Positions 40,262 to 44,676 of a stretch of DNA of 64,000 nucleotides are shown piece after piece. The DNA is taken from NCBI RefSeq assembly GCF_003569045.1, contig NZ_BFCB01000002.1, forward strand, positions 1,221,506 through 1,285,505, given 5' to 3'. The stretch is from Aggregatilinea lenta (GTDB lineage Bacteria; Chloroflexota; Anaerolineae; Aggregatilineales; Aggregatilineaceae). The position numbers were made by a program, and so were the translations under genes. The notes under the pieces are model-generated. The model ran no database searches. It was not told the DNA's origin and was given only the letters and a program-made list of their open reading frames with translations. Each line of letters opens with the position of its first letter. Position 1 is the stretch's first letter.

Positions 40262-40540
40262 ATGACCGACAAACAGACTCCAACCCCTGAGTTCAAGGCA
40301 AAAGTGGTCCTTGAAGTGCTCACACAGGCTAAACAAATCGCTGACAGCAGTCGAGAGTACGGCATCCCTGAGCCGGTGATCGAGCAGTGGGTAAATGTCT
40401 TTCTGGAACGCGCACCGCGCATTTTCGAGGATGAGCATGTTCGGTCGGAGCAGGAGATCACCGATCCCGCGTTCGTTGCCAGCCTTGAGCGCAGTCTGGA
40501 AGAGAACCGCGATATATGGGAAGAACTGGCAAAACACTGA
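40262..40540 (+). CDS. Transposase-like HTH protein, candidate antitoxin
   Basis: 92 residues. The first half, PEFKAKVVLEVLTQAKQIAD and SREYGIPEPVIEQWVNVFLE, is the HTH_Tnp_1 fold found at the N-terminus of IS3-family OrfA. The second half, ERSLEENRDIWEELAKH, is an amphipathic stretch like the toxin-neutralising tail of small antitoxins. The next gene begins 25 nt before this one ends, so the two are coupled. No transposase catalytic gene or terminal repeats are near, so an antitoxin role is more likely than an IS remnant (inference). Confidence 0.68.
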   Translation: MTDKQTPTPEFKAKVVLEVLTQAKQIADSSREYGIPEPVIEQWVNVFLERAPRIFEDEHVRSEQEITDPAFVASLERSLEENRDIWEELAKH

Positions 40541-40929
40541 GCGTAAGCCAGATCGTCGAAATTAACCGCCGAATGATCCGAGAGTTCGGCGGTGTGTTTT
40601 TTGAGGGCGACTCGAATCTGGCAAATTCCGGTTCCCTCGAACATATCCTGGACGCGGTCGAGGGCACATTGTTCGGGGAGCCACTTTACACCGACATTTA
40701 CCAACAAGCAGCCGCCATTGCCTGGCGCATCATCGTCGGGCATATCTTCCACGATGGCAATAAGCGTACTGGAATGGAAGCCTGCCGACTCTATCTTGAT
40801 CTAAGTGGATACGTCATGCATATGGATCGGGAAGTGATCGATGTAGCGCTACAAATAGCCAAACGGGAAATAGAGTTCGAAGCGTTTATCGAGTGGCTGG
40901 CAGAGAGAACCAGTGAGCGTACCGAATAG
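40516..40929 (+). CDS. doc: Fic/Doc-family toxin
   Basis: 137 residues of the Doc type: helices around QQAAAIAWRIIVGHIFHDGNK, with the active motif HIFHDGNKRTG (H76, F78, D80, N82, K83, R84). Doc phosphorylates elongation factor Tu in phage P1, while other Fic proteins transfer AMP. The HxFxD-GNKR form with K instead of the G of AMPylators favours the Doc kinase branch. Overlaps the upstream HTH gene by 25 nt, the usual antitoxin-first order. Start ATG without its own strong ribosome site, consistent with coupling. Confidence 0.88.
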   Translation: MGRTGKTLSVSQIVEINRRMIREFGGVFFEGDSNLANSGSLEHILDAVEGTLFGEPLYTDIYQQAAAIAWRIIVGHIFHDGNKRTGMEACRLYLDLSGYVMHMDREVIDVALQIAKREIEFEAFIEWLAERTSERTE

Positions 40930-41078: not shown

Positions 41079-41678
41079 TTACGCCTTCGCGTCCCCCAGC
41101 CGCAGCCGGATCGCGGGCGGGTTGGCCCACCATGCCTCTAGCGCCGGGACGACTTCCTCTGGCGACTCGACCAGCGTCAGCCACTGCAAATCGGTCGGCG
41201 TGATGGCCGCGTTCTCGGCGAACGCGGCGACGAAGCGCCGCCACATCGGGCCGACCAGCACGAACGGGCGCGCCGAAAGTTCCCCGACCTGCAGCAGGCT
41301 CCACACCAGCGAGATCTCGCTCAGCGTGCCGACGCCGCCGCGCAGCGCGACGAACGCATCCGGGCGCTGGACCAGGAAAAACAGCCGCTCGCGCAGCGTC
41401 TCGAACGACACGACCTCCTTGCAGAAGCCGTTGGGCTTCAGGCCGCGCGTCTCGAACATGCCGACCGCGCCGCCGATTACGTGGCCTCCGGCCTCGTATG
41501 CGCCCTGGCTGGCGGCTTCCATCACGCCGCTGTAGCCGCCAGACAGCAGCGCATAGCCCGCCTCGGCCAACGCGCGGCCCACCGCCTCTGCGACGTGCCA
41601 ATCGACGCTGCCCGGCGCGACGGATGCGCTGCCATACACCGCCACCACGCGGTCCGTTGCCTGTGAAGAACTGTCCAT
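41079..41678 (-). CDS. LOG-family (lysine decarboxylase-like) nucleotide-binding protein
   Basis: 199 residues of Rossmann type: VVAVYGSASVAPG, YALLSGGYSGVMEAASQGAY, and LRGGVGTLSEISLVWSLLQ. The family hallmark PGGxGTxxE reads RGGVGTLSE here, so the proline is replaced. LOG enzymes hydrolyse cytokinin-type or other nucleoside 5'-monophosphates to base and ribose-phosphate; the wider SLOG superfamily includes nucleotide sensors of bacterial defence. It is the last gene of the minus-strand run that includes the TIR-like and protease genes, 98 nt after the prodomain-like gene. ATG at 41678. Confidence 0.83.
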   Translation of the reverse strand: MDSSSQATDRVVAVYGSASVAPGSVDWHVAEAVGRALAEAGYALLSGGYSGVMEAASQGAYEAGGHVIGGAVGMFETRGLKPNGFCKEVVSFETLRERLFFLVQRPDAFVALRGGVGTLSEISLVWSLLQVGELSARPFVLVGPMWRRFVAAFAENAAITPTDLQWLTLVESPEEVVPALEAWWANPPAIRLRLGDAKA

Positions 41679-41776
41679 ACTATCCCACTCGCTCTTTCTA
41701 TGGTCTTCCGGCCTCACGCGGCGCCGGATCGGCCCCTAAGCATACCCCGGCCCCTTCCGAAGCGCATCCCGCCGGG

Positions 41777-43217: not shown

Positions 43218-44357
43218 CTAGCCGTGTGACCTGTCGAGATTGGGTAGCAGCTTGTCCAGTTCACCCGCCAGCATATCCTTGAGCTTGTGGATTTTTTCGT
43301 ACATCAACACGCGCTGCGTTTTGATGTCGAACGGCAGCAGCTCACCTTCGCGCGCGATCAGCACCGTGGACGTGTTCACACCCCACGCGTAGCCGACTTC
43401 GAGGAACACGTTCGGGTTGCCGCCGTCCAGCAGCGCCACGACGAGCCTGGCCGTGCGGATGCGCTCAAACATGCGGTCGATGATGTCTCCGGTGAAGTGG
43501 TCGAGGTCCATGCGCTCGCACAAATAGCCGCGATCCTTAATGCACGGCTGGATCGCCAGATAAAACTGGTCGTCGTAGTCGTCTTTGAACGGCATGGCGA
43601 CGAAGATGTGCGGGGTGGTCGCGGTCGCCTCCGCGACGCGAAACTCCGGCATGAACGAGTCAGCGCCGCTGATCACGCGTGGTTGCGGCGCAATGATTTT
43701 CAACTCGGGCGCTTCCGCTTCAAAGTCTGCGGGCGGCGGCACGGACGGCGCGGTGATCGGAGCTTCCACCGGGGACCGCATCGCGGCTTGCGGCGCAATC
43801 GGCGCGGCTTCCTCCGGCGCGACCGGCTGCGCCACCAGAAATTCGTCCAGCGCGGCCCGAAATACCTGTGCGCGGTACTCGTTTTGCTCCACGATAGTGA
43901 TACGGGCCAGATCGGACGGATATTCCCCGGCTTCGTAAGCATCCGCGAAGCCCAGCAGCAGCGAGCGGAACGCTTCAACTTCGTCCAGACTAAGACCGGT
44001 TCGCACGCCATGCACGGTCGTCGCCAAGTGTCCGCAGGGCACGCTCTCGCGCCACAACGATCGTAGGAAGCTATGGCCCAGCGCGCGGAGCTGCGCGTAA
44101 TGCAGCGTTTTTACGGCCCCTGTGCCCACGACGACGACCTGCGGGGACGCCAGGGTATTTTCGCTTGGCAGCAGGCGGTATTCGCCGGACGCGGGGCGCT
44201 CGGCTTCGGGTACACCCAGCCGCTTTAGCACCTGGGCATCCAGGCCGGACGAGTTCGGCGCGTATTTCACAGCCAGCACATCGGCGGGAAACGCCAGCGC
44301 GTCGCCCTGCACGACTTCCACCGCGAACCCAAATTTGATCTCCGTGTGCCCGCTCAT
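43218..44357 (-). CDS. Macro-like plus TIR/deoxyribosyltransferase-like fusion protein
   Basis: 379 residues in three parts. Residues 1-175 look like a macro or M17-N fold: VEVVQGDALAFPADVLAVKY, VVVVGTGAVKTL, and DLARITIVEQNEYRAQVFRA. A Pro/Ala-rich linker spans 176-245. Residues 249-372 form a Rossmann-like domain: IFVAMPFKDDYDDQF, IKDRGYLCERMD, TGDIIDRMFERIRTARLVVA, and NPNVFLEVGYAWGVNTSTVL. E320 is in the position of the catalytic Glu of nucleoside deoxyribosyltransferases and TIR NADases. Macro domains bind ADP-ribose, and TIR-like domains cleave NAD or nucleotides. The gene is 16 nt after a MazG-like gene. Annotation by eye; the C-terminal domain is surer than the N-terminal one. Confidence 0.72.
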   Translation of the reverse strand: MSGHTEIKFGFAVEVVQGDALAFPADVLAVKYAPNSSGLDAQVLKRLGVPEAERPASGEYRLLPSENTLASPQVVVVGTGAVKTLHYAQLRALGHSFLRSLWRESVPCGHLATTVHGVRTGLSLDEVEAFRSLLLGFADAYEAGEYPSDLARITIVEQNEYRAQVFRAALDEFLVAQPVAPEEAAPIAPQAAMRSPVEAPITAPSVPPPADFEAEAPELKIIAPQPRVISGADSFMPEFRVAEATATTPHIFVAMPFKDDYDDQFYLAIQPCIKDRGYLCERMDLDHFTGDIIDRMFERIRTARLVVALLDGGNPNVFLEVGYAWGVNTSTVLIAREGELLPFDIKTQRVLMYEKIHKLKDMLAGELDKLLPNLDRSHG

Positions 44358-44373
44358 GGTGTCTCCCTGCTCC

Positions 44374-44676
44374 CTATTCGTCCCACGTGCGCCCGTAGTT
44401 CACGTCCAGCTTGTCGAGGATCGCGCGCTCCAGGTCGATGTCGCTGACGCTCGCCAGTTGCAGCAAATACAGCGCGACGTCGGCCAGCTCGCCCGCCAGC
44501 GCGTCCCGATCCGCGATCTCCCCATTCCACTGGAAGTGTTCCAGAACTTCCGCCGCCTCGATGCTGATCGAGGTGGCGATGTTGCGCGGCGTCTGCGGAC
44601 GCGGGCTGTCCGGCGCATACCAGCCTTTACTGCGCACAAAGTCGTTCATTCGCTGCGTGAGTTCGGCGATGTCCAT
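44374..44676 (-). CDS. MazG-like nucleotide pyrophosphohydrolase
   Basis: 100 residues, all-alpha. The metal-binding motif is E40-A-A-E43 (SIEAAEVLEHFQW) with E63-L-A-D66 (GELADVALYLLQLA), typical of MazG-like/RS21-C6 enzymes that cut (d)NTPs to monophosphates. The sequence RPQTPRNIATSISIEAAEVL is common to dCTPase-like members. The stop lies 16 nt before the macro/TIR-like gene, which has GGGAGAC as ribosome site, so the pair is an operon. It may be housekeeping nucleotide-pool cleaning or part of a nucleotide-based response. Confidence 0.88.
   Translation of the reverse strand: MDIAELTQRMNDFVRSKGWYAPDSPRPQTPRNIATSISIEAAEVLEHFQWNGEIADRDALAGELADVALYLLQLASVSDIDLERAILDKLDVNYGRTWDE

Follow-up and report, generated by a model that had tools for sequence, protein, structure and literature searches.

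An M17 aminopeptidase-type N domain joined to a TIR/DRHyd-superfamily domain: a probable autonomous sensor-effector encoded next to a mazG-like gene

In the window (the whole stretch of 64,000 nucleotides analysed here), the gene that follows a mazG-like gene encodes a protein that joins the N-terminal domain of M17 leucyl aminopeptidases, without the peptidase, to a TIR/DRHyd-superfamily domain. We consider this fusion to be, probably, an autonomous sensor-effector for which the mazG gene is dispensable. The M17-type N domain, freed from the peptidase, would most likely sense a signal or control assembly. The C domain, once switched on, would most likely act as an N-glycosidase that cleaves NAD+ or a ribonucleotide through Glu320, and the cleavage would arrest or kill the cell, by analogy with TIR-type effectors; MazG would not be needed for this function. 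What is new is an unusual build, an M17 N domain without peptidase plus TIR/DRHyd, of a known kind of effector that is presumably of the immune type, and we found no M17-N/TIR or M17-N/DRHyd fusion described in the open-licence literature searched. TIR-type sensor-effector fusions are prominent in bacterial immunity, and their sensor input is often unknown. Here a front domain detached from a housekeeping peptidase is the candidate sensor, and it might bind the ligand of the peptidase N domain or mimic the assembly of the peptidase.

The two genes are part of a genome of 6.2 Mb in five contigs. Both are minus-strand ORFs (Table 1), separated by positions 44358–44373, in agreement with the spacing of 16 nt given in an earlier note on this DNA. 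Both halves of the fusion are matched in eight other genomes of a first survey, which covered 41 genomes including the source genome; in a ninth, G006, the relative is cut by the contig end. The AlphaFold2 model of the fusion, made with 12 family sequences, has a mean pLDDT of 74 and comprises two folded domains, connected by a poorly predicted linker (residues ~176–241). Therefore, in view of the relatives with both halves and the two predicted folded domains, the fusion is not a chance ORF. The Pfam matches of the fusion, M17_N (0.034) and Nuc_deoxyrib_tr (0.12), are both below cut-off, and a PDB search with the full fusion sequence as a single query gives no match.

Table 1 Features of the locus, in window coordinates
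Feature	Positions	Strand	Basis
MazG-like NTP pyrophosphohydrolase	44374-44676	-	ORF with ATG, 100 aa; Pfam and PDB relatives
M17N-DRHyd fusion protein	43218-44357	-	ORF with ATG, 379 aa
Fusion N domain, residues ~8-177, leucyl-aminopeptidase N-terminal (macro-fold)	43827-44336	-	VIA, profiles, M17 signature in distant loci
Fusion C domain, residues ~246-371, DRHyd/TIR-superfamily N-glycosidase domain	43245-43622	-	PADLOC, VIA, Glu320, Phe252
NARROW LEAF 1 N-terminal-domain-like gene, 333 aa	42055-43056	-	1.8e-04, below cut-off; weak trypsin-like matches too
NARROW LEAF 1 N-terminal-domain-like gene, 88 aa	41777-42043	-	1.4e-07
LOG-type SLOG protein	41079-41717	-	TIGR00730 1e-24, just below cut-off; Pfam Lysine_decarbox above cut-off
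Doc/Fic-type toxin gene	40262-40929	+	DOC_P1 7.3e-16

The N domain has a macro fold, and structure comparison alone does not separate its two candidate lineages. The domain superimposes on E. coli PepA (1gyt) with a VIA Z of 17.1 (159 residues aligned, rmsd 2.3) and on the second macrodomain of PARP9 with a VIA Z of 16.8 (160 residues, rmsd 2.9). This tie would suit a reading in which the N domain is a true macrodomain, one that binds or hydrolyses ADP-ribose and thereby detects what a TIR, or the fusion's own C domain, produces, in the manner of ThsA in TM-macro Thoeris. The tie is broken by sequence profiles. In 400 genomes of the phylum, a profile built from 11 N domains matches 12, the source genome itself and 11 others, and the 11 matches are weak and lie in frames of at least 504 aa that read as leucyl aminopeptidases. 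The broader profile A5 (27 rows) reaches aminopeptidase N domains at 5.7e-18 and 3.0e-18. Three profile searches give 43 distant loci (40 distinct places, those in G411, G266, and G330 each being fetched twice), and in 41 of the 43 loci the M17 signature, sought in all six frames with a pattern widened to cover variants, is present in one of the frames. The remaining two loci are short (2,288 and 2,439 bases; L150 and L156), and L150 reads as a truncated aminopeptidase. When the N-domain profile is searched against the PDB, two entries match, 8pz0, an aminopeptidase (E 0.018), and one that is unrelated (E 0.38); neither is a macrodomain, and no macro profile hit is found in Pfam either. In addition, Lys31 is present in 25 of the 27 family rows, at a site where aminopeptidases read V-N, which also argues against an ADP-ribose macrodomain.

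Therefore, the N domain belongs to the N-terminal lineage of M17 leucyl aminopeptidases and has lost the peptidase. It is homologous to the PepA-type enzyme over most of its length, but the 379-aa frame has no metallopeptidase domain and the M17 signature is not found in the locus. The earlier note had described the domain as macro/M17-N-like, and the description holds on both counts, the macro fold by structure and the M17-N lineage by sequence profiles. A macrodomain that reads ADP-ribose is, in our judgement, distinctly improbable. TM-macro Thoeris (ThsA macro, ThsB TIR) resembles the fusion in that a macro-fold domain and a TIR-fold enzyme form one functional unit. According to an excerpt of PMC11204291, however, the Thoeris components are encoded as separate proteins, the effector being a membrane protein and the macrodomain one that binds ADPR, whereas here a single protein carries an aminopeptidase-type N domain. 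The PADLOC models of thsA and thsB have no match among five window proteins.

The C domain, modelled alone with a pLDDT of 87, is nearest to DNPH1 (8rps; VIA Z 16.2, rmsd 1.8, 120 residues aligned), followed by MilB (Z 14.8), a deoxyribosyltransferase (Z 13.5), and TIR structures with Z of 13.3 or less (4c6t and 8ifl at 13.3), SPARTA and STING-TIR among them. The Rossmann-like fold of TIR, NDT, and DNPH1, together with the catalytic Glu, places the domain in the TIR-DRHyd-SLOG superfamily. The motif NPNVFLEVG, singled out in the earlier note for its catalytic Glu, is present in the fusion, and its Glu is residue 320. A profile alignment with MilB, weak at E 0.23, pairs Glu320 with a MilB Glu, and the structure of the MilB E103A mutant is among the Foldseek matches of the domain. 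The Pfam models TIR and TIR_2 do not match the window fusion at E up to 1, whereas canonical TIR models do match the N-terminal or swapped domain of its relatives. Since the nucleotide N-glycosidases (Z 16) match the C domain better in structure than do the TIRs (Z 13), NAD+ is not the sole likely substrate.

One active-site position bears on the choice of substrate. In the structural alignments, the first aligned residues are model residue 8 with DNPH1 18, 9 with MilB 12, and 9 with NDT 2. With an offset that is inferred to hold over five residues, Phe252 (model residue 14) falls on human DNPH1 24, MilB 17, and NDT 7. Residues 7 of NDT and 24 of DNPH1 are Tyr, as the mutant names Y7F and Y24F tell, and the fusion has Phe instead. 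In the part of PMC11204291 that treats this position, the residue is given as usually Phe or Ala in NADase TIRs and as Tyr in NDT and DNPH1, which are highly specific for 2'-deoxy substrates. Phe252 is present in 16/16 Glu-type members, which suggests, as far as the sequence can tell, a substrate with a 2'-hydroxyl, e.g., NAD+ or a ribonucleotide. Thus, DNPH1/Rcl, MilB, and nucleoside deoxyribosyltransferase share the fold and, by the weak MilB alignment, the Glu motif of the C domain; the window protein differs from all of them in its fused N domain and in the TIR exchange among its relatives, and from DNPH1 and NDT in Phe252.

With DNPH1 and a CMP N-glycosidase as its closest folds, the C domain could also belong to nucleotide-pool sanitation, in which MazG would convert (d)NTPs to (d)NMPs, the DNPH1-like domain would remove the base, the nearby LOG protein would do the same on NMPs, and the N domain would be a scaffold without immune role. 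Phe rather than Tyr at position 252 argues against 2'-deoxynucleotides as substrates, and the relatives and neighbourhoods described below weigh on the same side; we regard such a role as unlikely.

The effector end of the fusion has been exchanged among its relatives. Of 154 genomes of the order that were searched, 35 gave a match, and 34 of these hold the family, as 36 proteins at 34 loci, the window's included; the 35th match, a 510-aa frame in G033 (E 2.9e-4), was taken for an aminopeptidase and left out. The fusion is patchy in its own family (6/18 genomes) and in the order (34/154). Beyond the order, a search of 396 genomes of the class gives, among the matches listed, one clear member, G579, an M17N-DRHyd protein with the Glu. 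The 36 proteins fall into three builds: M17N-DRHyd (16 proteins, the one in G006 being cut by the contig end), M17N with a canonical TIR (one protein), and TIR-M17N-DRHyd (19 proteins). In the single protein of the second build, in G026, a canonical TIR (TIR_2 2.6e-24) accompanies the family N domain; there is no DRHyd domain, for which reason the protein was left out of the comparison of Glu and TIR. The N-terminal TIR of the third build carries a FISYS-type motif in 19/19 proteins, two of which were scanned (TIR_2 2.4e-25 and 3.5e-25), and the motif S-x-W-[VI]-x-x-E, which we take to be the TIR catalytic motif, is likewise present in all 19.

The DRHyd active site is eroded in the TIR-bearing build. 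Residue 320 is Glu in 16/16 DRHyd-only proteins, which together with the DNPH1, NDT, and TIR folds bears out the earlier reading of a TIR/deoxyribosyltransferase-like C domain, and it is Gln in 18 and Gly in one of the 19 TIR-bearing proteins. Residues A254, F257, G290, D311, N314, and N316 are kept in 15–16 of the 16 DRHyd-only proteins vs 0–2 of the 19 TIR-bearing ones. The three builds can be read as a natural experiment on one glycosidase site, which is retained, replaced, or eroded according to the presence or absence of another TIR. Since a canonical TIR either replaces the DRHyd domain or accompanies an eroded one, the two domains probably fill one role, a pattern that may reflect a single evolutionary event. 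The same exchange argues against nucleotide-pool sanitation, in which we know of no canonical TIRs. It is conceivable, if rather doubtful, that aminopeptidase N domains have been recruited as sensors of infection or stress for interchangeable TIR-superfamily killers, and that the original DRHyd enzyme of the three-domain proteins is now a pseudo-enzyme that regulates the newly acquired canonical TIR.

In the N-domain tree INDEPENDENCE, which has rows for 35 of the 36 proteins (the N domain of the contig-cut G006 protein is omitted), at least three changes of the TIR state are needed. The Glu/Gln split yields three independent pairs when all branches are counted and one when the branches must be supported, and monophyly of the 19 TIR-bearing proteins is not rejected (p-AU 0.49). 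Accordingly, we describe the Glu/Gln split as a pattern without exceptions that may go back to one event, and make no claim of repeated convergence. Two further ideas about the third build were discarded. That the Gln form might be a natural substrate trap is at odds with the loss of other active-site positions as well. The C domains of TIR-bearing proteins do not look decayed either, as they remain under purifying selection, with dN/dS of 0.04–0.15 in the eight of 10 TIR-bearing pairs that could be scored because dS was unsaturated. The pairs were picked by hand and share members, and dS is saturated or high in several of them, so that the ratios are rough.

The two domains also differ in their rates. 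All six DRHyd-only pairs compared show lower similarity and a higher dN in the N domain than in the C domain; for example, the identities of the N and C domains are 64% vs 93% for G024/G030 and 59% vs 76% for G008/G003. The faster change of the N domain does not extend to the whole family, because the 10 TIR-bearing pairs are divided, with the dN of the N domain above that of the C domain in six and below it in four. Tandem duplicates occur in G011 for the fusion gene (L042:2337-4454) and in G450 for the three-domain gene (L115:6533-9534).

The C domain has a relative among CBASS effectors. The sole PADLOC match of the fusion at E up to 1 is the CBASS 'TIR' effector model PDLC00733 (1.1e-14), over the C domain. 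A tblastn search with the window protein gives 20 plasmid and 18 phage records, and the matches listed fall within residues 229–379, i.e., the C domain and the linker that precedes it. Among the genes found in this way, that on the Klebsiella plasmid NZ_CP099749.1 encodes a full PDLC00733 member (7.7e-192) with a Cap17-like N-terminal domain (7.1e-78), and sits after CBASS cyclase, HORMA, and TRIP13 genes. The family of this N-terminal domain, PF18178, is given in an excerpt of PMC10952713 as a TIR- and PNP-associating SLOG family. The Klebsiella effector resembles the fusion in its two-domain build and in a C domain with the Glu motif, but its N domain is Cap17-like and that of the fusion is M17-type. 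Therefore, the fusion shares the plan of the CBASS effector, an N-terminal sensor candidate followed by a TIR/DRHyd effector, with another N domain. The operons differ as well: none of the cyclase, HORMA, and TRIP13 genes of the Klebsiella system is matched among the scanned window proteins, and a CD-NTase cyclase is found neither by Pfam in the two genes and eight neighbours nor by PADLOC in the two genes and three neighbours. A related C domain (PDLC00733 1.4e-18) is also encoded by a Streptococcus phage gene (L181:2944-3603), near annotated genes of DNA-binding proteins.

The N domain of the three-domain relative L121 has no match on plasmids, and no relatives were found on viral contigs. 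A scan of genome contigs with a single protein gave 22 stretches that fit a pattern, none of them encoding a relative, and an alignment-based scan of genome contigs gave 10 loci.

The effector of retron-Eco1 is NDT-like. NAD+ cleavage by this system was reportedly described by Carabias in 2024. The DUF4062 TIR-like NADases (Swarozyc), as presented in a portion of PMC13174449, are similar to the fusion in that they pair a TIR/NDT-related domain, in which a Glu is conserved, with an auxiliary domain for sensing, and differ in that the window fusion has no DUF4062 match in Pfam. Judged by the company that its effector domain keeps, namely a CBASS effector and canonical TIRs, an anti-phage function of the fusion is plausible by analogy.

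The 100-aa protein is a MazG-type NTP pyrophosphohydrolase, as had been proposed. The Pfam models MazG-like (7.8e-08) and MazG (1.3e-04) match it above cut-off, its PDB relatives include the pyrophosphatase 4qgp (5.9e-10) and dCTP pyrophosphatase 1/RS21-C6, and the metal motifs ExxE (EAAE) and ExxD (ELAD) can be read from the sequence. The earlier note had gone on to suggest that the two proteins cooperate in a nucleotide-based stress or anti-phage module. Such a module would fit the gaps of 16, -4, 3, and 7 nt between the two genes in G000, G003, G008, and G009 (the start in G009 was chosen by hand), and the mazG gene that lies one gene away in G445. In its own family, the fusion follows mazG directly, within 16 nt, in four of the six genomes that hold it, and the two genes are likely co-transcribed there.

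The wider survey does not bear out the partnership. In the fetched stretches, mazG is the next gene in 4/34 fusion loci, and with G445 the loci in which it adjoins the fusion or lies one gene off number just 5/34. In the other 29, no mazG is nearby, two of the 29 being uncertain (G006 runs off its contig, and the mazG of G011 is at the edge of another contig). Thus, the pair is largely not conserved in relatives. Matches to the mazG query occur in 30 of 41 genomes (22 strongly, with E < 1e-30, and eight weakly), and in 7/7 mazG loci fetched from fusion-free genomes the fusion is not beside the gene. In four of these genomes (G001, G002, G020, and G025), mazG is beside glycosyltransferase and sugar transferase genes, as it is in four that have the fusion (G000, G003, G008, and G009); in G005, G013, and G015, mazG is present, the fusion is absent, and the glycosyltransferase/sugar transferase block is not in view. 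The fusion also occurs without a close mazG match, in four genomes of genus g19 whose mazG matches are weak, partial, and elsewhere (1.4e-7 to 9.1e-7), and in the TIR-bearing branch the gene that adjoins it is instead that of a PlsC-like acyltransferase (13/18 loci). In summary of the neighbourhoods, mazG is a conserved neighbour beside which the accessory fusion gene sits in one family, and a required partnership is not supported. We give a joint MazG–fusion module very little chance; the adjacency in the own family leaves room for a local functional link.

The same neighbourhoods complete the case on nucleotide-pool sanitation. The likeness of the MazG-like protein to dCTP pyrophosphatase 1 would suit it, as would the LOG gene that is in the same block in G000, G003, G008, and G011. 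The 29 of 34 fusion loci without mazG nearby in the fetched stretch, the two uncertain ones included, argue against it, as does G002, which keeps mazG and LOG together without the fusion.

Other neighbours of the fusion differ by lineage, which fits a self-contained protein and hence the autonomous sensor-effector that we favour. The PlsC-like acyltransferase gene is directly beside the TIR-M17N-DRHyd genes, often with a 4-nt overlap (e.g., L121:7465-8079), and the single PlsC-like protein scanned matches Pfam Acyltransferase at 6.4e-14. Of the five TIR-bearing loci without it, those in G460 and G484 are at contig ends, with that side hardly or not visible. In g19, a gene for a protein of 431–433 aa is directly upstream of the fusion in 4/4 loci; the one member scanned, of 431 aa (L046:6099-7394), has no match in Pfam. 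The first residues of one member of this family resemble a membrane anchor. In an unsystematic look, no clear defence islands were apparent in the fusion neighbourhoods viewed.

In the source genome, two genes similar to NARROW LEAF 1, a plant domain, sit between the fusion and the LOG gene. The LOG gene belongs to a conserved block, and in G003 the three genes mazG, fusion, and LOG run into one another with overlaps of 4 nt. Upstream of the Doc/Fic-type toxin gene, a 92-aa ORF overlaps the toxin gene and may encode an antitoxin.
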